Of a stretch of DNA of 42,241 bases, positions 29,128 to 41,510 are shown piece after piece. Made by a program: the position numbers and the translations under genes. Origin of the DNA: an uncultured Opitutia bacterium (GTDB taxonomy: Bacteria > Verrucomicrobiota > Verrucomicrobiia > Opitutales > CAJWYM01); contig CAJWYM010000026.1 in assembly GCA_913049555.1 (NCBI GenBank), forward strand, positions 1 to 42,241, read 5' to 3'. The notes beneath the pieces are model-generated. The model was not told where the DNA came from, searched no databases, and was given only the letters and a program-made list of their open reading frames with translations. Within the stretch, counting starts at the first letter, position 1. The number at the start of each line of letters is the position of its first letter.

Positions 29128-29730
29128 ATGTCTAAGAAAGTAATTTTTGGTGGATCTTTCAATCCAGTAACTTTGGGTCATGGAACTGTGATTAGTCGAC
29201 TGGAGGAGGCTGGATTTCAAGAAATTATTCTTTTACCGTGTTTCGATCATTTTCACGGAAAAGAACTCGAATTGTCAAAAATTCGTTTAGAAATGTGCAG
29301 GCGCATGTTTCGGAACTGGAAGGGCGTTCGTGTTTCAAATTTTGAAATTAAAAACCAACTTACTGGGGCAACCATTGATTTGATCCAAGCGTGGTTGGAT
29401 CATTATGGGGAGGTGGAGGATTTGTTCTTTCTCATCGGAACTGACAATGCGAATTATTTTCATAATTGGAAGTCTTGGCGAGAGTTACAGAGTTTAGTAT
29501 CTTTCTTAGTTATGGAGCGACCGGGAGAACCTTTGTTGGAATCTGGGAAATGGTGCCTGCAAGAGCCTCATCTATGGTTGCCTATAAAACGCTCTTATAA
29601 TCAGGTTCTTTCCTCCTCTTTGTTTCGTGATAAAATGAAAAAAGAGTTATATAAAGAGGCTCGTAAATTGGTTTCTCCCAAGGTATGGAATTTTATTAAG
29701 AAACAGGGACTCTATCAACAGAATGACTAG
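29128..29730 (+). CDS. nadD: Nicotinate-nucleotide adenylyltransferase (NadD-type)
   Basis: NadD joins ATP and nicotinate mononucleotide to make deamido-NAD in NAD synthesis. The nucleotidyltransferase motif GGSFNPVTLGH is at 8-18, with Thr15 where most NadD proteins have His of the HxGH box. FLIGTDNANYFHNW (101-114) is the substrate loop, and SSSLFR (162-167) corresponds to the ISSTxxR motif. At 200 residues its length fits. The open frame reaches back to 29092, but the ATG at 29128 starts the usual first strand. Its end overlaps the uvrA start by eight bases, so the two genes are translated in tandem. Confidence 0.85.
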   Translation: MSKKVIFGGSFNPVTLGHGTVISRLEEAGFQEIILLPCFDHFHGKELELSKIRLEMCRRMFRNWKGVRVSNFEIKNQLTGATIDLIQAWLDHYGEVEDLFFLIGTDNANYFHNWKSWRELQSLVSFLVMERPGEPLLESGKWCLQEPHLWLPIKRSYNQVLSSSLFRDKMKKELYKEARKLVSPKVWNFIKKQGLYQQND

Positions 29731-32700
29731 ATCTATAGACTTTATAAACCTCAAAGGGGTTCGCCAAAACAATCTAAAAGGGGTCGATCTTAAGATCCCA
29801 TTGCGGAAGTTGACAGTTGTTACAGGAGTGAGTGGGGCAGGAAAGTCTTCTTTGGTTTTTGATACTTTACATGCAGAGGGGCAGCGAAGGTATGTTGAAA
29901 CTTTCAGTCCTTATGTTCGTCAATTTATGGATACACTAGATCGACCGGATTTGGATGAGATTGAAAATATTCGCCCCTCGATAGCTATTGAACAAACGCA
30001 TGCTATTCGAACCTCTCGATCCACCGTGGGAACGATGACAGAGTTGACGGATTATTTTAAAGTATGGTTTTCAGAAAATGCTGACTTAATAGATCCTGAA
30101 AGTGGGAAAAAAATTGAGGACAACAATCGTAAAAGGGTTGTTGAAAACTTTCTTGGCTGCTATTTAGGTCAAAGAATATTGGTTGGCTTTTGTGTCAAAA
30201 AAGGAAAGAGTTCATGGAACTCGTTGTTAGAGGTTCTTTTGGCGCAAGGATATTCTAGATGTCTTTTGGAGGATGGGGTTCACAAGATTCATTCAAAGAG
30301 AGTCGAAGATTTTCTAACAGATGCTGAAAATCTTTACATCGTGCAGGATCGAATTTCTGTTCTTGAAAATTATAAAGCCCGATTGCTTGAAGCTGTGGAG
30401 CAAAGTTTTAAAGCGGGCAAAAATTGTCTTTGGGTCTCTAAAGATGAAGATGCTTCCATTTCAAAAAGTGAATTCTTTTATGAAGGTTTTTATTCGGATT
30501 CTGGCAAAAAGTTTCAACATTCATCCCCTTCATTGTTTTCATTCAATTCTCCTATCGGGGCATGTCCAGAATGTAAAGGATTTGGATACTCGATAGAAAT
30601 TGATTACAAATCTGTAATTGCAGACAAGAATTTATCAATTTCAGAGGGAGCCTTGAAGCCAATAGAGGGCTTTGCTGGGGGAGATGTTTTCAACAATTTA
30701 CTTCGAAATTTTAAAAGGAAAAAGTTTTCACTCGATACGCCTTGGTATCAATTGCCAGAGCAGGTTAAAGACTATGTGTTCCATGGAGATCAAGATTATA
30801 TTGAGGAATCAGGTCAATGGTTTGGAGTGAAAAGTTTTTTTGATTGGTTAGAAACGAAGACCTACAAAATGCATGTTCGGATGTTTTTGTCACGTTTCCG
30901 CACTTACAATATTTGCCCGAGTTGTCATGGCAAACGATTGAGAAAAGAAGCTCTGTGGTGGAAATGGCAGGGTCACACTCTTCCGGATCTCTATCAAATG
31001 CCCATTGAAAATCTCTTAACTTTAATCAATCGTAGCAACTCTATTGCTGGAGTGGAGGAATATGACTTTTTACCGGTTGCACTCAGGGAGATTGTGACTC
31101 GTCTAGGGTTTTTGGTTGAGGTTGGATTAGGATATTTAACTTTAGATCGAACGAGCAGAACTTTAAGTGGTGGTGAAATTCAGAGGGTCAATCTTACCAG
31201 TTGTATTGGGACGTCCTTGACAGATACTATTTTTGTTTTAGATGAGCCCTCTATAGGATTGCACTCCAGAGATATTGGTCGCTTGGTGAAAATTCTACGT
31301 CGGTTGACCCGCCTAGGAAATACAGTGGTCGTTGTTGAGCATGACGAGGCGATTATGAAGGCAGCAGATTTTTTGGTAGAAGTGGGTCCAAAACCTGGAG
31401 AGCGTGGGGGGTATATCGTATTTGCAGACCATGCTAAAAAGATTCTAAAAAGTTCTAAATCTCTGACGGGTTTATATCTTTCTGGGAAAAAAGAAGTGGA
31501 ATGTAGAAATCAGCGTAGAAAAATTGTTAAAAGTGGAAAGAATCAAACTCCAGAACTTTGGCTAAAGGGAATTGTCAAAAATAACTTAAAGGGTCTAGAT
31601 GTATCAATTCCTTTGCACCGATTTGTTTGTTTGAGTGGAGTATCGGGTTCAGGCAAGTCTACTTTAATGAATTCGGCGATTCATCAAGGTCTCTTAGCTC
31701 TTCACGGTAAGCGGGTGAAAGACATTGCAAAATTTAAAGATATTGGAACTACGATTGCATTTTCTGAAGTTGTTTTTGTGGATCAGACTCCTTTAAGCAG
31801 ATCTTCCAGGTCTAATATTGGTATTTATAGCAAAGCTTGGGAGGAGGTTAGAAAATTATATTCAAAAATATCCTTTGAAAATAGTGGAGACCTTAAGCCA
31901 GGAAGCTTTTCATTCAACAGTGGAACGGGTCGCTGTCAAGAATGTGGGGGTATGGGTGAAGTCAAAGTGGAAATGCAATTCCTTTCAGACGTTTTTGTTA
32001 CTTGTCCCAGTTGTAATGGCAAACGGTTCAATGATGAGGTATTGTCAGTTCATTTCAAAGGAAAAAATGTCCTTGAAGTTATGGATTTGACCGTGAATCA
32101 GGCGGTTGATTTTTTTGGAGAATTTCCCAAGATTGTGAATCGATTAGGTATCATACAGTCGGTTGGCCTTGGGTATTTGCGAATGGGTCAAACTCTTTCA
32201 ACCCTCTCCGGAGGAGAGGCTCAAAGATTAAAATTAGTCCGATACTTAGAATCTAAGAAAGTGGGTTTGAAGGAGCATAGAATTTTACTGCTGGATGAAC
32301 CCACAACTGGATTGCATCGGGAGGATATAGGGGTTTTGCTTCAAGTTTTTCAAAAATTAGTGGATCGAGGAAATAGCTTGATTGTCATTGAGCATCAAAT
32401 CGATGTTCTAAAGTCCGCGGATTGGATCTTGGAGCTTGGACCTGAATCAGGAGCTCGAGGGGGTTCTCTTGTCGGTTCTGGAACACCCGAGAGGATTGCC
32501 CAAGGGGATTCATTCACCGCTCCATTTTTGTCTGAAGCTTTGAAGATGAAAAAGAGCGTGGTTTCTGATTGTAAAGTGGAAGAATTCTCTTCATCGACTT
32601 CTTACAGGAAACGATTCCAAAGCAAGGGTTCCAGAGCTATTGAAATTGTGGAGGCCACTGAAAATAATCTTAAAAATGTATCGGTCCAAATTGAACCCAA

Positions 32701-35248
32701 TCAACTCACTGTAATTACGGGTGTCTCTGGTTCCGGTAAATCCACCTTAGCTTTTGACATTCTATTTTCAGAAGGACAGAGGCGATTTATGGAATCTTTG
32801 TCCTCCTATACAAGGCAATTTGTGGAGCAATTGAATAAACCATCCGTTCGAGGAGTGTACGGTCTTTCTCCTTCCGTTGCTATTCAGCAACGGCAGACTG
32901 TTGGCAATCGTAAATCAACGGTAGCCACAATTACGGAGGTAGCTCACTATCTTAGATTGCTGTATGCTCGAGCAGGAGTGATTGTAAACCCTGCCACCGG
33001 CAATCGGGTTGAAAATCAATCTCTGGATGAGATTCTGGGTCGACTATACAAAACCATTGAATCCAATAAAAAAAGTCCCCACCTTTATTTGTTAGCCCCT
33101 AGAATTCGGAAAAGAAAAGGGCATCATGAGCCCGTTGCTAATTGGGCTGAAAATTTGGGGTATTCTGCGCTTCGCTGCGATGGCGAGATTATTCTAATAA
33201 AGGATTTCATAGGATTAGATCGTTACAAGGAACACTCGGTTGAGGTAGTAATCGCAGATTTTGGAATTGAAGGAGCCAATAAATTAGATTCTAAAAATAA
33301 AAACAAATTTCGAGAACAGATTGAAAAAGTCTTACATTTAGGAGGGGACACTTGTCTGATCTCGGATAGTGAAGGGAATGAGATTTCTTGGTTTTCCACT
33401 AAAAATTCAGATCCGGAAACCGGGGATGCTTTTCAAGAACTGGATCCTAAAGATTTTTCATGGAATTCAACTCGTGGATGGTGCGAGAAATGCCAAGGGC
33501 ATGGTCGAATTTGGAAAGAAGTTAAGAAAGGCCAATGGATAGATCTGGGCGAATGTTCCAGTTGTGAAGGAGAAAGATTAAACGACCTGAGTCGATTGGT
33601 CGTTTTAGACCTTGAGGATGGGGGTGTCATTCGATTGCCTGAATTATTAAAGCTTTCTGTTCAAAATTTATTAAAGAAATTGGATCAAATTGTTCACAAA
33701 AAAAGAGTAAAGCCTATCTTGGAGAGTATTTTACCCGAGATTCATGAACGTCTAAACTTTATGGAAGAAGTTGGCTTGAGTTATTTATCTCTAGATAGAT
33801 CGGCGACTACTTTGTCAGGTGGGGAGGCACAAAGAATTCGTTTAGCATCTCAGCTTGGCTCCTATCTATCAGGAGTATTATATGTTTTGGACGAACCTTC
33901 GATCGGTTTGCATGCAAGAGACAATGACAAGTTGATGCAAGCTCTTGAAGCATTGAGGGACCGTGGGAATACGGTTTTGGTTGTGGAGCATGATGAGGCA
34001 ATCATGAGGCGTTGTGATCAAATCATTGATATGGGTCCTGGTGCTGGAATTCATGGGGGTGAAGTCGTGGCTCAAGGAACTCCCAAAAAGTTGATACAAT
34101 CAGCTAAATCTCTTACGGGCAAAATGCTCAAAGAAGGTATGGAGCATCCGATGAGAGGGAATTATCGGGAGGTTAAAAGGTCGAAAAAGGGGTTGGACCC
34201 GAATTGGATCGATCTTAAAGGGGCTTCGCTCAGAAATTTAAAAAATCTGAATGTTCAATTCCCCTTGAATCGATTGATTGGTATTTGTGGAGTCTCGGGT
34301 GCCGGCAAATCGACCTTGGTAAAAGAAGTTTTATTGCCCTCCTTGCAATTGTCGATTGAGAAAAGACTCAATAAATTGAATGCAAAAACTTTCTTGAAGT
34401 TCTCGAACCATGAGGAGAAATGTCCTTTTAGGGAATTAATAAATGGAAATAAAATCACACGTGTATTGGAGGTAGATCAGTCTCCAATAGGAAAAACCCC
34501 TCGTTCAGTCCCTGCAACTTATATTGGTTTGTATGATTGGATCCGTAAAATTTTTACTTCTTTACCTGAATCAAAAATTCGTGGTTTTGACAGGGGACGT
34601 TTTTCATTCAACGTTAAAGGGGGTCGATGTGAAACTTGTGGAGGTTTGGGAAAAGTTGGAGTAGAAATGAACTTTTTACCCAAAGCGTATGTCAATTGTG
34701 AGGAATGCGATGGAAATCGCTACAGTCAAGAAACCAACGAAATTCTCTACAAAGGCAAAAGTATTTCAGAGGTCATGCAACTAAGTTTTGAAGAAGCGCT
34801 CCTTTTCTTTGAAGCACATAAAAAACCAAAAGAGATTTGTGAATGGATGGTCCAAGCTGGATTGGGGTACATTCGATTGGGTCAATCCTCGCCGACTTTA
34901 TCAGGGGGTGAAGCTCAAAGGATGAAAATAGTCTCAGAACTTTCAAAGGGAGGAGGTTACAGCGACCTTCAATCCGCCAAAGGGCGAGAAACCCTTTATG
35001 TTCTAGAAGAGCCCAGTATTGGTTTGCATTTATCTGACTGCAAACGATTGATTGAAGTGTTGCATCATCTGGTAGACCAAGGGCATTCGGTACTTATTAT
35101 AGAGCACAATACGGATTTATTAGCTGAAATGGACTGGTTGATTGAATTGGGTCCTGAAGGGGGAGAAAAAGGAGGGGAGCTACTTTTTCAAGGAAATTTT
35201 GAAACTATCAAACAGTGCCAAGAAAGTATCACAAGTGCTTATTTGTAA
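29723..35248 (+). CDS. uvrA: Tandem-duplicated UvrA, excinuclease ABC subunit A
   Basis: UvrA finds bulky DNA damage for nucleotide-excision repair and loads UvrB. Standard UvrA is about 950 residues with two ABC modules. This 1841-residue protein has four, so it is effectively two UvrAs in one chain, as in chlamydiae. Walker A lysines are at 41, 645, 1006 and 1529. Signature motifs LSGGE start at 481, 828, 1364 and 1726. Cys pairs of the Zn modules begin near 281, 398, 738, 1254 and 1636. The second half keeps the RSVPATYIGLYD motif (about 1592-1604). In the first half the same place reads SRSNIGIYSKAW. The fourth Walker B is LEEPSIGLH instead of LDEP. One chain may thus act as a built-in dimer with a specialised first half. 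Confidence 0.96.
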   Translation: MTRSIDFINLKGVRQNNLKGVDLKIPLRKLTVVTGVSGAGKSSLVFDTLHAEGQRRYVETFSPYVRQFMDTLDRPDLDEIENIRPSIAIEQTHAIRTSRSTVGTMTELTDYFKVWFSENADLIDPESGKKIEDNNRKRVVENFLGCYLGQRILVGFCVKKGKSSWNSLLEVLLAQGYSRCLLEDGVHKIHSKRVEDFLTDAENLYIVQDRISVLENYKARLLEAVEQSFKAGKNCLWVSKDEDASISKSEFFYEGFYSDSGKKFQHSSPSLFSFNSPIGACPECKGFGYSIEIDYKSVIADKNLSISEGALKPIEGFAGGDVFNNLLRNFKRKKFSLDTPWYQLPEQVKDYVFHGDQDYIEESGQWFGVKSFFDWLETKTYKMHVRMFLSRFRTYNICPSCHGKRLRKEALWWKWQGHTLPDLYQMPIENLLTLINRSNSIAGVEEYDFLPVALREIVTRLGFLVEVGLGYLTLDRTSRTLSGGEIQRVNLTSCIGTSLTDTIFVLDEPSIGLHSRDIGRLVKILRRLTRLGNTVVVVEHDEAIMKAADFLVEVGPKPGERGGYIVFADHAKKILKSSKSLTGLYLSGKKEVECRNQRRKIVKSGKNQTPELWLKGIVKNNLKGLDVSIPLHRFVCLSGVSGSGKSTLMNSAIHQGLLALHGKRVKDIAKFKDIGTTIAFSEVVFVDQTPLSRSSRSNIGIYSKAWEEVRKLYSKISFENSGDLKPGSFSFNSGTGRCQECGGMGEVKVEMQFLSDVFVTCPSCNGKRFNDEVLSVHFKGKNVLEVMDLTVNQAVDFFGEFPKIVNRLGIIQSVGLGYLRMGQTLSTLSGGEAQRLKLVRYLESKKVGLKEHRILLLDEPTTGLHREDIGVLLQVFQKLVDRGNSLIVIEHQIDVLKSADWILELGPESGARGGSLVGSGTPERIAQGDSFTAPFLSEALKMKKSVVSDCKVEEFSSSTSYRKRFQSKGSRAIEIVEATENNLKNVSVQIEPNQLTVITGVSGSGKSTLAFDILFSEGQRRFMESLSSYTRQFVEQLNKPSVRGVYGLSPSVAIQQRQTVGNRKSTVATITEVAHYLRLLYARAGVIVNPATGNRVENQSLDEILGRLYKTIESNKKSPHLYLLAPRIRKRKGHHEPVANWAENLGYSALRCDGEIILIKDFIGLDRYKEHSVEVVIADFGIEGANKLDSKNKNKFREQIEKVLHLGGDTCLISDSEGNEISWFSTKNSDPETGDAFQELDPKDFSWNSTRGWCEKCQGHGRIWKEVKKGQWIDLGECSSCEGERLNDLSRLVVLDLEDGGVIRLPELLKLSVQNLLKKLDQIVHKKRVKPILESILPEIHERLNFMEEVGLSYLSLDRSATTLSGGEAQRIRLASQLGSYLSGVLYVLDEPSIGLHARDNDKLMQALEALRDRGNTVLVVEHDEAIMRRCDQIIDMGPGAGIHGGEVVAQGTPKKLIQSAKSLTGKMLKEGMEHPMRGNYREVKRSKKGLDPNWIDLKGASLRNLKNLNVQFPLNRLIGICGVSGAGKSTLVKEVLLPSLQLSIEKRLNKLNAKTFLKFSNHEEKCPFRELINGNKITRVLEVDQSPIGKTPRSVPATYIGLYDWIRKIFTSLPESKIRGFDRGRFSFNVKGGRCETCGGLGKVGVEMNFLPKAYVNCEECDGNRYSQETNEILYKGKSISEVMQLSFEEALLFFEAHKKPKEICEWMVQAGLGYIRLGQSSPTLSGGEAQRMKIVSELSKGGGYSDLQSAKGRETLYVLEEPSIGLHLSDCKRLIEVLHHLVDQGHSVLIIEHNTDLLAEMDWLIELGPEGGEKGGELLFQGNFETIKQCQESITSAYL

Positions 35249-36201: not shown

Positions 36202-38115
36202 ATGAATAGTTTAAAAAAGAAGATCTTGATTGGCATTGCTTTTTGTCTTCTCTTAGGAATCCTTAGCAACGGAATTTTAATGCACCACTTTGGGCGTCAA
36301 CCCATTATTGAGGAATCCTTTAAATCGATTCAGAACGTTGGAGACAATTTAGTTTATCGAATTTTGTCTAGGATGCGGGAGTATGAAACCTTTTTGAAAT
36401 CTATTGTAGGGGTTTCCAACGAATTATGGTCCAAACCCGACGATTTCGAAGGGGCTATTTTAAATATGTTGGGCTTGAATAAAGACACCCGAATCCGATC
36501 TATTACGGTTTATGGTCTGGCAGACAAACAAGGAAAAAGCTGGAGTCGTAGTCAAGGATTGTCATGGGATCAAGTGTCGGTGAAACAAGAGGATTTAGGG
36601 AAGTTTGAATGGTATCGCATTGGTAAAATTTTCGAGCCCAACCGATTGTACTGGAATCGGGCTCATTTAGATAACTTTAGTAACGAACTCGTGGTAACTG
36701 GAATCTATAAAACCGTTCTTAAAAATAATCAGGAGCTTTTGGTTTCCATAGACCTTCAACTTACAGGTCTGAATGCAATTACAGAAAAACTAGAAAAAGA
36801 TATTGATGGCTCTTACATCTTCATTACAGACCAATCCAATCAAATGTTGGTTTCCTCTGCAAAAATGAAAAAAAGAACCCAAGGTACAAGGTTTAGAAAT
36901 ACAAATGATTTCAAGGAAATGTATGAAAATTTTGAACCCATTAATGACGTTTTTGATAACATGAAGGAATCTGTTTTAGAGGCCGCGGTTCAGATGCCGA
37001 GTTATAATTCTGATAGATGGAGCGATCTGAAGGTGGATGATCTGGATGAGGATTATTTAAAATTATCCCTTGCAATTGGTATGGATCCACTCATTCGAGC
37101 TACTTTTTTTTCTCGGAAAGAATTTTCTGACGATTTTGTCATCCAAGACTCTTGTGCTTTGTATACTTTTTATGTCCCTGATACTTATTGGAAATTAGGA
37201 ATTGTAGTCCCCTCCAGCTATGAAACCTCTGTTGCCTCAGCGGTAACTCGTCTCTTCTATTTGAATTGGATTGGAAGTGGTATCGTCGTTTTATTCTTAA
37301 TTTCATGTTTGTTGAATCGATTCATAAAACAGCCACTTTCTCAATTAAAGAGTCATTTGGATTCATTGATTGCAGCAATTGAAAAATCGAATTGGTTGCA
37401 TCTTAAAGAGATGTCAGCGGTCAGATTCGAGGCAAATGAATTTGGTTCGATTCAAAATCAAATGGTCTCACTCTTACAACAAATTTTAGGAATCCATGAA
37501 AGAGGAAAAAAAGAAAAAGAAGTCATCAAACAAAACCTGAAAAATATTCAGCAAAATCGAGACAAGGTTTTAGATCGATGTGAAAAATTAGACCAAGAAG
37601 CTAAATTTCTAAAACTTGAGATTCAGAAATATGTAGATGAAGAAAATGAAGAATTGAGTGCTGAACCAGAAAAAAGTGTTAAGACCGAAAAAATCTTTAA
37701 AGATCTCATTAGAAACTCGAAAGGTCTGCCATTGACGGTTGTTCCAATATGGAACCAAATTATTTATTTACCCTACATAAACTGTTTTATAAACGATAAT
37801 TGGGAATCACAACATACCAAATTCCTAGAAATGATGATCCGTTCAGAAAATAAATTCGTCCTTTTGTCTTTAACAGGTTTGTCCGTCGATAAAAGCTCAA
37901 AAAGTGTTGAGAGAATTCTTCAACTAAGGCGATCTTTGGTGAGTGCTGGGATTCAAGTATATTTTATTAATGCAGGTAGTTTTGTTGCAACTGAGTTTGC
38001 AAAGTCTTCCGATCATTCTCAAATTTTTACTTTTCGTTCTATTCAAGATACTCTTCAACAAATTTGGTCTCAATTGGATTTGAACAATCAATTGCCCCCT
38101 AGAGCCTCTTCTTAA
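36202..38115 (+). CDS. Membrane sensor with extracytoplasmic domain, HAMP-like linker and C-terminal STAS domain
   Basis: A first TM segment (about 8-28) and a second (about 355-373) bracket a 325-residue extracytoplasmic region. Its pattern (SITVYGLADKQGKSWSRSQG, VVTGIYKTV, LVSIDLQLTGL, GSYIFITDQSNQMLVSS) is that of a double-Cache sensor. Behind TM2 comes KQPLSQLKSHLDSLIAAI, a HAMP-type linker (about 375-430), then a coiled coil (435-480). The C-terminal domain (about 510-620), LTVVPIWNQIIYLPYIN... LLSLTGLSVDKSS... LRRSLVSAGIQVYFIN, follows the RsbR-type STAS pattern. There is no kinase, methyl-accepting or GGDEF domain, so the output is presumably protein-protein contact. It lies 20 bases before the channel gene, which makes it a likely partner or regulator. 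Confidence 0.78.
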   Translation: MNSLKKKILIGIAFCLLLGILSNGILMHHFGRQPIIEESFKSIQNVGDNLVYRILSRMREYETFLKSIVGVSNELWSKPDDFEGAILNMLGLNKDTRIRSITVYGLADKQGKSWSRSQGLSWDQVSVKQEDLGKFEWYRIGKIFEPNRLYWNRAHLDNFSNELVVTGIYKTVLKNNQELLVSIDLQLTGLNAITEKLEKDIDGSYIFITDQSNQMLVSSAKMKKRTQGTRFRNTNDFKEMYENFEPINDVFDNMKESVLEAAVQMPSYNSDRWSDLKVDDLDEDYLKLSLAIGMDPLIRATFFSRKEFSDDFVIQDSCALYTFYVPDTYWKLGIVVPSSYETSVASAVTRLFYLNWIGSGIVVLFLISCLLNRFIKQPLSQLKSHLDSLIAAIEKSNWLHLKEMSAVRFEANEFGSIQNQMVSLLQQILGIHERGKKEKEVIKQNLKNIQQNRDKVLDRCEKLDQEAKFLKLEIQKYVDEENEELSAEPEKSVKTEKIFKDLIRNSKGLPLTVVPIWNQIIYLPYINCFINDNWESQHTKFLEMMIRSENKFVLLSLTGLSVDKSSKSVERILQLRRSLVSAGIQVYFINAGSFVATEFAKSSDHSQIFTFRSIQDTLQQIWSQLDLNNQLPPRASS

Positions 38116-38135: not shown

Positions 38136-41100
38136 ATGAAGAAGATTTTCATTTTATTTATTGTTGTTCGGGTCTTACTTATGCTTTTCAGCAAGGTCTC
38201 GAATTTTGATAAAGAGTTGGAACTCACAATTGCAGTAGTCGCTCCAATCTCAGGGGAATCAAGCTCCTTGGGTCAGTCAATGGTTGACGGTGCTAGGTTG
38301 TATGTCGACGAAGTGAATCGCTCTGGTGGGATTGACGGCAAAAAAGTGGCCCTTGAAATTTATGATGATCACAATGATCCGCTTCGAGCAAATGATATAG
38401 CAATCGACATTGTGGAGGCAAATCAAGCGTTTGCTGTTTTAGGTCATTACAGTAGTCCTTGTTCCTACGCAGCCGGAAAAATATATCAGAAGTACGGAAT
38501 TCCTGTTATTTCACCCACTGCCACTGCTCCTTACTTGACTGCAAATAATGATTGGTATTTCCGGAACCTGTCTAGTGATTCAATGCAGGGCCGATTTTTA
38601 GCAAATTATTGTGATCGTGTATTTGGCATCGATACGGTTCATGTGTTATTTGAGGATTCAAATTATGGTCGTGACCTAGCTCAAACTTTTGGAAAAGAAG
38701 CCGTTCGATTAGAAATTGACGTTGCAGATTTCGTTTCGTTTGATCCAGACGTAGAGACCGCTTTTTCCCAAGATTTAAAATCTGTTGTTAAAAAACTCAA
38801 AAATACCCCAATAAAGGATTTCATTTTTTTAGCATGTGGTCCTGAAATTGGAGCGAAATTAGTAAAAAGACTGAAAGATGAGGGTATAAAAAATTCGATC
38901 ATTGCCTCTGACAAGCTTTCAAACCCAAAATTTACCGAATTGCTTGCTCTGGCGCCTAGAGAAAAACTAAGCCCAGGATATTACAGCAATGGAATTGTGG
39001 TGGCAACGCCCCTGATTTATGACAGTGCCAATGAGCTTGCTCAAACGTTTCGATCTGATTTTGAGTCAGAATATGAAAGGGAACCCAACTGGATTTCTGC
39101 TTACTCTTATGATGCAATCCGTCTACTGCTGGTTTCCGCAGATGAAAAAGAGATTTCTGGGGAAATGAGTGCACTTCGCATGGAAAGAAAGCAGATTCGT
39201 GAACATTTGATTTCAATGAATAGTATGGAGTTTGCCATTCCTGGAGTTACAGGACCCAATTTTTTCAATATTACAGGAGATGTGATAAAACCTATTTCTA
39301 TGGGAACTTATCGAAGTCAAAGAATTGTATCCGCTTTGAATCAATTGCAAGTCGTTCCAGATATAAACGAGTTTAATAACTTGGAAGAAGTTTCAAATTC
39401 GGGACAAATCATTCAGCTTGAGAATCAATATTTCTATCAAACTCAGGTCGTTTATACAGGTATGGAGCTTCTCAACATTCATGAAATTAAAATGGATGAA
39501 ATGGTGGCCGATATGGATTTTTATTTATGGTTTCGTTATCGTGGAGACTTTGACGCAAAGTCGTTAGAATTTATTAATTCAAAGGATGTGATTGAAATTG
39601 GAGATCCTATTGAGAGCAATCAACAAGGGGGCCTCAAGTATGATCTCTACAAAATAAGGGGAAAATTTAAGCTGAATTTTACGGGCCGCGAACAATTTGA
39701 TGAGGAAGTTCTTGGCCTTTCTTTTAGAAATAAAAACCAATCTAGGAATAAATTGATTTTCGTGGTGGATGTTATTGGGATGGGAATTCTGGAAAGCAAT
39801 GGTCTATTGAATCGACTGACCAATATAGAAAATTGGCTAGAATCTTCAATTAATTTTGGAATTGTGAAAGCAGAGGCATTTCAAAATGCTTCAAAGTTCC
39901 CAACTCTTGGAAATCTTGAATACCTAAACTCACAAAAAGAGGGAGTTCACTACTCACAGTTTAATTATTTGCTCCATTTGAAAAAAAATCAACTGACCCT
40001 GAGAAATGGAATTTCTGAAGAAATCGCCTACTTTTTGCTAGACTTAAGTTTAATTATGATCGTTGTTTATGCGTTTAACGATCGAATTCCGATCGTTCGT
40101 CTGTTTCCTCGTTTTATCTGGGTTTTACAGGCTGTTTGCGATTTGATGTTACTGCTTTCTTTAGAGGTATTGCTTATTCTGTATCTACAAGGAAAACAAG
40201 TCTCGTCCTACAATCTAGAGACGATTGTAACTCTTTTTGATGTTTTATGGTGGTTGATTCCGGCAATCAATTTGATAACGGTTTTAAAGATTTTTGTCTG
40301 GAAACCCATTGAAAAATCCTCAGGGAATGAAATCCCCAGGTTATTGATTTCAACAATCTCTATTATTATTTTAAGCAGTGCCTCATTTGGGGTTATGGCT
40401 TTTGTTTTCGATATGAAAGTTACTGGTCTTTTGGCAACGTCCGGTATGATTGCAGCCATTATTGGTCTAGCCTTACAGATGAATTTATCAAATATAATTT
40501 CCGGAATTACGATCAGCTTAGAAAAGCCATTCAAAATAGGGGATTGGGTGAAGGTAGGGGAGCAAGAGGGAAAAGTTTTGGAAACAAATTGGAGAACCAC
40601 TCGACTAGAAACCAGAGATGAATCCGTTTTATGTATCCCTAATAGTGTCGTATCCGATTCTCATATACATAATTTTCACTATCCAGATGATCTCTTTTTA
40701 TTAGAAATGTCTTTGCAGATAGATTTAGCGCACCGCCCAGAGAGAGTGGAGAAGATTTTGATGGATGCAGTCATGGATACAGAGGAAATGTTAAAAGAAC
40801 CTAAACCCACGGTGGACATTGAGGTGGGTTCTCATTCTGTTACTTATTCGATCACTTTTGCTGTCCGGGATTATGAAAGAAGGGATGACTATTTAACGAT
40901 TGCTTGGAAATATGTTTGGAATCATCTTAATCGGGCTGGTATTACTCTAGCCTCTAATAGAAGTCAAATTGAGATGATTCAGCGCGAATCGCCAGTCTTG
41001 AAAGATGGGTTTCACGATCCGGCTGAATTGATGTTAGACATTGATATTTTTCGACCTTTTAAGAAGTCTGAAGTACTGGAGCTCCTAAATGGGGTTTCTA

Positions 41101-41510
41101 TGGGGTTGTATAAATCTCAGGAAAAAATTATCAGACAGGGAGATGATGGGGAGTCTTTATTCATAATTTTAGAGGGAACCGTTGAAATTTGGATTGAAAT
41201 TGCTGAAGGTAAAGAAATTGAGGTTGCCCGAATGGGACCTGGTAAAATCTTCGGTGAAATGTCTTTATTGACAGGAGAAGCTCGAACGGCAACTGTTATT
41301 TCAACAACAGAGAGTCGCTTGATTGAAATCACGAAAGAGGATTTTGCACCTTTAGTTGCCAAGTACCCAAGTTTTGCTGAGGAACTAAGCGGGGTTTTAG
41401 TGGATCGAAAACTACGAAATCGAGTTTCCTCTGAAGAGCTAAACTCCAAAGAGAGCGAACATGCTACCCAGCATTTAATCAATCAAATTCGTGGTTTTTT
41501 TGCATTGTAA
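38136..41510 (+). CDS. Ligand-binding, MscS-type channel with a cyclic-nucleotide-binding domain (multidomain fusion)
   Basis: After an N-terminal hydrophobic segment (about 4-18), residues 28-405 form a LivJ/Leu-Ile-Val-type binding protein (IAVVAPISGESSSLGQSMVDGARLY, GGIDGKKVALEIYDD, VLGHYSSPCS, YGIPVISPTAT). Residues about 428-625 are a second, beta-rich extracytoplasmic domain (MDFYLWFRYRGDF). About five TM segments follow (631-648, 658-685, 698-720, 736-758, 763-790). The last is the MscS pore helix, and the MscS beta domain continues with ISLEKPFKIGDWVKVG...GKVLETNWRTTRLET and IPNSVVSDSHIHNF. Residues 970-1095 are a cyclic-nucleotide-binding domain with phosphate-binding cassette FGEMSLLTGEARTATV (Glu1041, Arg1050). 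The protein is probably an inner-membrane channel gated by a periplasmic ligand, cNMP, membrane tension or a combination. It shares an operon with the STAS sensor. Confidence 0.9.
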   Translation: MKKIFILFIVVRVLLMLFSKVSNFDKELELTIAVVAPISGESSSLGQSMVDGARLYVDEVNRSGGIDGKKVALEIYDDHNDPLRANDIAIDIVEANQAFAVLGHYSSPCSYAAGKIYQKYGIPVISPTATAPYLTANNDWYFRNLSSDSMQGRFLANYCDRVFGIDTVHVLFEDSNYGRDLAQTFGKEAVRLEIDVADFVSFDPDVETAFSQDLKSVVKKLKNTPIKDFIFLACGPEIGAKLVKRLKDEGIKNSIIASDKLSNPKFTELLALAPREKLSPGYYSNGIVVATPLIYDSANELAQTFRSDFESEYEREPNWISAYSYDAIRLLLVSADEKEISGEMSALRMERKQIREHLISMNSMEFAIPGVTGPNFFNITGDVIKPISMGTYRSQRIVSALNQLQVVPDINEFNNLEEVSNSGQIIQLENQYFYQTQVVYTGMELLNIHEIKMDEMVADMDFYLWFRYRGDFDAKSLEFINSKDVIEIGDPIESNQQGGLKYDLYKIRGKFKLNFTGREQFDEEVLGLSFRNKNQSRNKLIFVVDVIGMGILESNGLLNRLTNIENWLESSINFGIVKAEAFQNASKFPTLGNLEYLNSQKEGVHYSQFNYLLHLKKNQLTLRNGISEEIAYFLLDLSLIMIVVYAFNDRIPIVRLFPRFIWVLQAVCDLMLLLSLEVLLILYLQGKQVSSYNLETIVTLFDVLWWLIPAINLITVLKIFVWKPIEKSSGNEIPRLLISTISIIILSSASFGVMAFVFDMKVTGLLATSGMIAAIIGLALQMNLSNIISGITISLEKPFKIGDWVKVGEQEGKVLETNWRTTRLETRDESVLCIPNSVVSDSHIHNFHYPDDLFLLEMSLQIDLAHRPERVEKILMDAVMDTEEMLKEPKPTVDIEVGSHSVTYSITFAVRDYERRDDYLTIAWKYVWNHLNRAGITLASNRSQIEMIQRESPVLKDGFHDPAELMLDIDIFRPFKKSEVLELLNGVSMGLYKSQEKIIRQGDDGESLFIILEGTVEIWIEIAEGKEIEVARMGPGKIFGEMSLLTGEARTATVISTTESRLIEITKEDFAPLVAKYPSFAEELSGVLVDRKLRNRVSSEELNSKESEHATQHLINQIRGFFAL

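Follow-up and report, generated by a model that had tools for sequence, protein, structure and literature searches.

In the window, by which we mean the whole stretch of 42,241 nucleotides analysed here from an uncultured Opitutia bacterium, one stop-free reading frame with an ATG start encodes a protein (P0001) that probably belongs to a widespread and apparently undescribed family of bacterial receptor-channels, combining a natural pore swap with gating by ligand and cyclic nucleotide (cNMP). In this architecture, the extracellular half of a PBP-fused pLGIC, consisting of a periplasmic binding domain (PBP) and a Cys-loop-type ligand-binding domain (LBD), would have been placed on a bCNG-like MscS pore carrying a cytoplasmic cNMP-binding (CNB) domain. 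Most likely, P0001 is an extracellular-ligand-gated MscS-type channel tuned by cNMP from the inside.

Three of the four domains (Table 1) are matched by Pfam models above their curated cut-offs: Peripla_BP_6 at residues 30–377 (E 3.1e-41), MS_channel_2nd at 784–848 (E 2.3e-21) and cNMP_binding at 992–1077 (E 2.7e-23). The closest PDB matches are Leu/Ile/Val-binding proteins, MscS/YnaI and the CNB domains of PKG/PKA, and we regard the identity of the four domains (PBP-I, pLGIC-type LBD, MscS pore and CNB) as nearly certain. These matches bear out a preliminary description of the sequence, which had listed a LivJ-like periplasmic binding module (28–405), about five TM helices ending in an MscS pore and beta domain (763–850) and a complete CNB domain with its cassette sequence (FGEMSLLTGEARTATV, residues 1039–1054); the order PBP-I, MscS, CNB, for which it had proposed a domain search, was recovered here and again in many phyla. 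What its list overlooked is the pLGIC-type LBD at residues ~402–620.

Table 1. Features of the receptor-channel gene and its product (window coordinates; aa, residues of P0001)
Feature	Position	Strand	Evidence
Single-chain receptor-channel, 1124 aa: PBP-I / pLGIC-type LBD / 5 TM incl. MscS pore / CNB	38136..41510	+	ORF, Pfam, AF2
N-terminal hydrophobic signal or anchor helix, aa 1–25	38136..38210	+	Hydropathy, AF2 helix 2–21
LivJ-type periplasmic binding domain, type I fold, aa 28–400; contacts S107, T130, Y177, D259	38217..39335	+	PF13458 E 3.1e-41; PDB 4gnr, 3hut, 2liv; conservation
pLGIC (Cys-loop receptor)-type LBD, predicted beta sandwich, aa 402–620	39339..39995	+	AF2 pLDDT 87; Foldseek AChBP E 7e-10; hhalign E 7e-73
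Degenerated Pro-loop position, aa 515–524, FTGREQFDEE (pLGIC class: FDFxxYPFDxQ)	39678..39707	+	Motif counts by class
TM helices 1–4, aa 628–757	40017..40406	+	AF2 secondary structure, hydropathy
MscS pore-lining helix, TM3a/b equivalent, aa 763–796	40422..40523	+	PDB alignment, bCNG alignment, AF2
MscS pore helix end and beta domain, PF00924, aa 784–848	40485..40679	+	Pfam
MscS alpha/beta cage domain, aa ~849–945	40680..40970	+	PDB alignment to MscS up to aa 927; AF2
CNB domain, aa 992–1077; phosphate-binding cassette aa 1039–1054 with E1041, R1050	41109..41366	+	PF00027 E 2.7e-23; conservation

The ~220 residues between the binding domain and the membrane (402–620) carry no Pfam or NCBIfam annotation, and a sequence profile of this region from the MscS-bearing proteins matched no PDB chain, for which reason fold comparison and a sister class of proteins were used instead. 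The AF2 model, predicted from alignment rows of MscS-carrying relatives only and including no pLGIC rows, is a beta sandwich with a mean pLDDT of 87 and a pTM of 0.80. The best 50 Foldseek matches of this model in the PDB are all AChBP (E 7.2e-10, probability 1.00), with TM-scores of 0.5–0.6 (0.60 by target length) and an rmsd of about 5 Å; residues ~402–620 are therefore predicted to have the fold of a Cys-loop receptor LBD. Trp465 and Arg467 of this domain are invariant in the MscS-class members. The proposed identity of the domain as a pLGIC-type LBD rests on this modelled fold and on the sequences of the sister class.

Four fusions, the first to be found, served as queries for a genome scan, which returned 47 loci in two classes. 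The first has the order PBP-LBD-TM-MscS, with or without a CNB domain; in the second, PBP and LBD are followed by four TM helices matching Neur_chan_memb (PF02932; E 1.4e-7 in L066, above the cut-off, and 7e-6 in L071), giving proteins of ~730–780 residues, or longer ones where a C-terminal solute-binding domain is present. An LBD profile of the second class finds ELIC, GLIC and GABA-A chains in the PDB (E 5.6e-7), and extending the profile into the TM region lowers the E-values of the GABA-A, ELIC and GLIC matches down to 2.4e-18, which identifies these proteins as genuine pLGICs. Aligned with hhalign, the LBDs of the two classes match over the whole domain (E 7e-73, 35% identity). Even with regions that reached into the membrane part, the alignment ended at the pre-M1 residue, leaving the idea that TM1 is a remnant of the pLGIC M1 helix unsupported. 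As judged from these alignments, the two classes have their outer half in common and diverge at the first membrane residue, which is the pattern of a pore swap.

The pLGIC class has peculiarities of its own. Two members (L066:5986-9549 and L067:5749-9513) carry a second, C-terminal extracellular domain, SBP_bac_1, and so have binding proteins at both subunit ends. Two other loci (L070:3025-10422 and L072:244-7677) encode two tandem PBP-pLGIC paralogues behind a secreted-looking protein of 921/960 residues, which has a PBP-I-like domain at its start and a further solute-binding-protein-like half; from this layout, bacterial pLGICs may include hetero-oligomers with a binding partner of their own. 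Both receptor versions, MscS-type and pLGIC-type, are found within one genome in three cases (L041/L070, L040/L072 and L051/L073).

In pLGICs, the Pro-loop couples the sensor to the pore. Of 24 pLGIC-class members, 22 carry the motif [FY]PF[DE]x[QH]; none of 47 MscS-class members does, P0001 reading EQFDEE at this position; the shorter form Y/FPxD is likewise absent from P0001 (EQFD) and from all 47. In addition, PF02932, the 4-TM pore, has no match in P0001 or in the genome that carries it, an MscS pore standing in its place. Because neither of these two defining features, 4-TM pore and Pro-loop, was found in it, P0001 is not a pLGIC, even though the other pLGIC feature, an AChBP-fold beta-sandwich LBD, is predicted by the model. 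The Pro-loop proline is the single most conserved position of pLGICs, and LBDs without the motif could escape detection (Jaiteh 2016, PMC4795631). The missing motif may be the reason why the PBP-LBD-MscS family went unnoticed.

In a tree of PBP plus LBD, a single branch splits the two pore classes (support 99/98, and 99 with more rows), and the tree of the LBD by itself gives the same split (support 99, or 77 without the Pro-loop columns). The PBP by itself gives a tree with no single split (4 changes, AU p 0.027); the two pore classes may thus have traded PBP domains, and a joint move of PBP and LBD in one event finds no support in this tree. These trees are unrooted; as the Pro-loop goes back to the ancestor of the superfamily, the MscS class is most simply taken as the derived one. 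In an MscS-core tree, in which the donor bCNG was sought, the fusions separate from the plain bCNGs of the window's order with the exception of the long-branched L051.

Turning to the membrane part, the AF2 model has five helices before the beta domain (628–648, 658–686, 691–729, 735–757 and 763–796). The PF00924 match and a PDB match to MscS at residues 708–927 (E 2e-16) provide the defining homology by which P0001 is, at the sequence level, an MscS superfamily member, and the pore-helix motif GLALQxNLSNIxSG is well conserved. Since bCNGs of ~500 residues align to P0001 from about residue 648, the helix at 628–648 appears to be an addition, required if the N-terminus is to lie outside. The helix at residues 1–25 is likewise predicted to place the N-terminal half outside, for a modelled topology of an N-terminal signal or anchor helix, external PBP and LBD, five TM helices, and MscS cage and CNB inside. 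The same topology accounts for the position of the C-termini, internal in the MscS class, which has a CNB added there, and external in the pLGIC class, in which L066 and L067 carry a second solute-binding domain. The pLGIC family is pentameric and the MscS family heptameric; by analogy, a five-type sensor on a seven-type pore makes stoichiometry a candidate mismatch in P0001.

LivJ contacts its alpha-amino-acid ligand through residues that we take to be Ser79, Thr102, Tyr150, Tyr202 and Glu226. Four of them have kept equivalents in P0001 (Ser107, Thr130, Tyr177 and Asp259); the equivalent of Tyr202 is Cys234, and this tyrosine is not conserved among MscS-class members. Across 47 such members, Ser107 is kept in 42, Thr130 in 37, Tyr177 in 38 and the acidic residue at 259 (Asp) in 28, with all four contacts present in 27 and at least one missing in 20. 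We give an amino-acid-like ligand even odds. A sodium:dicarboxylate (glutamate-type) symporter gene directly adjoins the fusion gene in Leptospiraceae and SAR324 (L045:9420-10712 and L047:498-1874), a weak hint at acidic amino acids.

On the cytoplasmic side, P0001 shows the bCNG feature of an MscS pore with a C-terminal CNB domain bearing the cassette glutamate and arginine (Glu1041 and Arg1050), both kept in 31 of 36 aligned rows. The same genome encodes four class III nucleotide cyclases, so that cNMP is available, and some MscS-class members have no CNB or a degenerate one (L047 and L050). We lean slightly towards modulation of P0001 by cNMP. The preliminary description had staked its reading on contact residues surviving across homologues in both domains: they are largely kept, with Tyr202 lost and one or more binding-domain contacts absent in the 20 members mentioned above.

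Mechanistically, an outside ligand would bind and close the periplasmic binding domain, the LBD ring would pass the motion on to TM1 and the MscS pore would open, with cNMP bound inside shifting the gating. The outcome would be a flux of ions and osmolytes under the control of an outside solute and an inside messenger. We moderately favour a ligand-gated P0001 over an only structural role. The fuller proposal could fall either way: an MscS pore of heptameric type would be opened by a sensor of the neurotransmitter-receptor type (PBP-I plus Cys-loop LBD) that is unrelated to it, cNMP would act as a second signal from inside, and the LBD would either have been rebuilt as a seven-membered ring or work across a 5:7 symmetry mismatch, by a coupling that took the place of the Pro-loop. 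The earlier view, in which P0001 is a bacterial equivalent of the ligand-gated channels and an outer ligand and an inner messenger meet at one pore, fits this anatomy and is supported in part. It was incomplete in that the parallel extends to homology through the putative Cys-loop-type LBD; some members, besides, have no CNB.

The alternative that survives best, although we consider it unlikely, is an ordinary bCNG or MscS channel gated by tension or cNMP, whose outer domains are vestigial or a scaffold and whose external half senses nothing. Such a channel would agree with a pore and CNB that are canonical by Pfam, with the disappearance of the Pro-loop coupling motif and with the loss of some pocket residues in part of the family. 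However, a useless 600-residue half would decay, whereas PBP and LBD are kept in essentially every complete member across many phyla, with Trp465 and Arg467 unchanged and the four contacts intact in more than half of the members (27/47); moreover, a protein that no longer has the pLGIC TMD would be expected to lose the Pro-loop too. Far less probable is a signalling receptor in which conduction matters little, with the MscS part as a module for oligomerisation and transmission and the CNB end as the output. CNB domains are signalling modules in many proteins, and non-conducting channel homologues exist in other families, but ten sampled members keep the pore with no CNB in the stretch read, so the CNB cannot be the general output, and conservation of the pore-helix motif also speaks against this reading.

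The architecture of P0001 recurs widely. The same domain order was found in Desulfobacterota, Thiotrichales, Leptospiraceae, Chloroflexota, SAR324, Planctomycetota and Azospirillum. Complete genomes or isolates carry it in one open frame each (a plasmid of Azospirillum sp. B510, Desulfonema magnum, Oceanospirillum sanctuarii and Xenococcus sp.), and it is present in MAGs of Desulfobacterota, Leptospiraceae, Chloroflexota, SAR324, Calditrichota and Planctomycetota. Loci read from genome samples comprise 25 PBP-LBD-MscS-CNB, 10 PBP-LBD-MscS without CNB and 12 PBP-LBD-pLGIC pore arrangements, counts that include a few repeats of genomes seen earlier and in which "without CNB" means none in the stretch read. 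An LBD of either class occurs in 35 of 291 genomes sampled from the class of Desulfonema. The chance that the fusion is a one-off, or an artefact of assembly or gene calling, is negligible: the window is a single contig out of 102 in its assembly, and very few genomes of its order have the family, but the complete genomes and isolates of D. magnum, Azospirillum spp., Oceanospirillum and Xenococcus rule it out, and the recurrence that the preliminary description had called for is amply seen.

In samples of the window's own phylum (1/289) and order (1/273), the fusion was found only in the window's genome, whereas the order is rich in plain bCNGs; on this distribution, the copy in the window may be an acquisition. 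Some 20 bp upstream of the channel gene lies a 637-residue, sensor-like ORF (36202–38115) with a weak single-Cache match, a coiled coil and a STAS-like C-terminus, likely in the same operon. As a conserved partner it was rejected, with no relative near other fusions or on plasmids. Elsewhere, the window encodes a double-length UvrA (29723–35248) whose single chain of 1841 residues combines repeated ABC units with two UvrA interaction domains. In D. magnum, a Roc-COR GTPase with leucine-rich repeats is encoded upstream of the fusion gene (L038:3033-5723).

Among known systems, the bCNG channels are MscS superfamily members with a C-terminal CNB domain, according to the passage of PMC4560390 that cites Caldwell 2010. 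Those of ~500 residues from the window's order align end to end with the pore helix, vestibule and CNB of P0001 at 25–30% identity; unlike the bCNGs of the order, which have no large outer domain, P0001 adds ~620 residues of PBP and pLGIC-type LBD and a fifth TM helix before the pore. Fusions of PBP-I to ordinary pLGICs have been described in Magnetospirillum and Bradyrhizobium (Tasneem 2004, PMC549065). They share with P0001 the order PBP-I then Cys-loop-type LBD (the hhalign match given above), but P0001 has MscS(-CNB) for the Neur_chan_memb pore, a lost Pro-loop and a C-terminus predicted inside, making a CNB possible. The prokaryotic channel DeCLIC likewise has a further periplasmic domain before its pLGIC ECD, although its NTD lobes are not PBP-I and its pore is a normal pLGIC pore (PMC12664993). 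LivJ and LivK, the branched-chain amino acid binding proteins, share the type I PBP fold and several contact residues with P0001, whose binding domain is instead fused to a channel and has lost the Tyr202 equivalent. Ionotropic glutamate receptors would work alike in that PBP-I outside and a pore belong to one chain; they are not homologous as a whole, since P0001 has no P-loop K+-channel-like pore and, by Pfam, no PBP-II LBD split by such a pore. A search of the open-access literature found no description of a pLGIC-type LBD on an MscS pore.

Until now, the sensor of a pLGIC has been assumed to go only with its own 4-TM pore, and the Pro-loop to mark the superfamily without exception. If the assignment made here is right, a Cys-loop LBD survives without its own pore and Pro-loop, on another pore, in many bacterial phyla. 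Domain databases miss such LBDs, Pfam and NCBIfam being blank over this region, and the Azospirillum fusion protein is annotated as an ABC transporter substrate-binding protein. In effect, nature would have moved a neurotransmitter-receptor sensor onto an unrelated pore. As a chimera made by nature, the family would be a place to ask how force is passed on by a Cys-loop LBD and whether ring size can change, and would offer a handle on what bacterial pLGICs and bCNGs sense.
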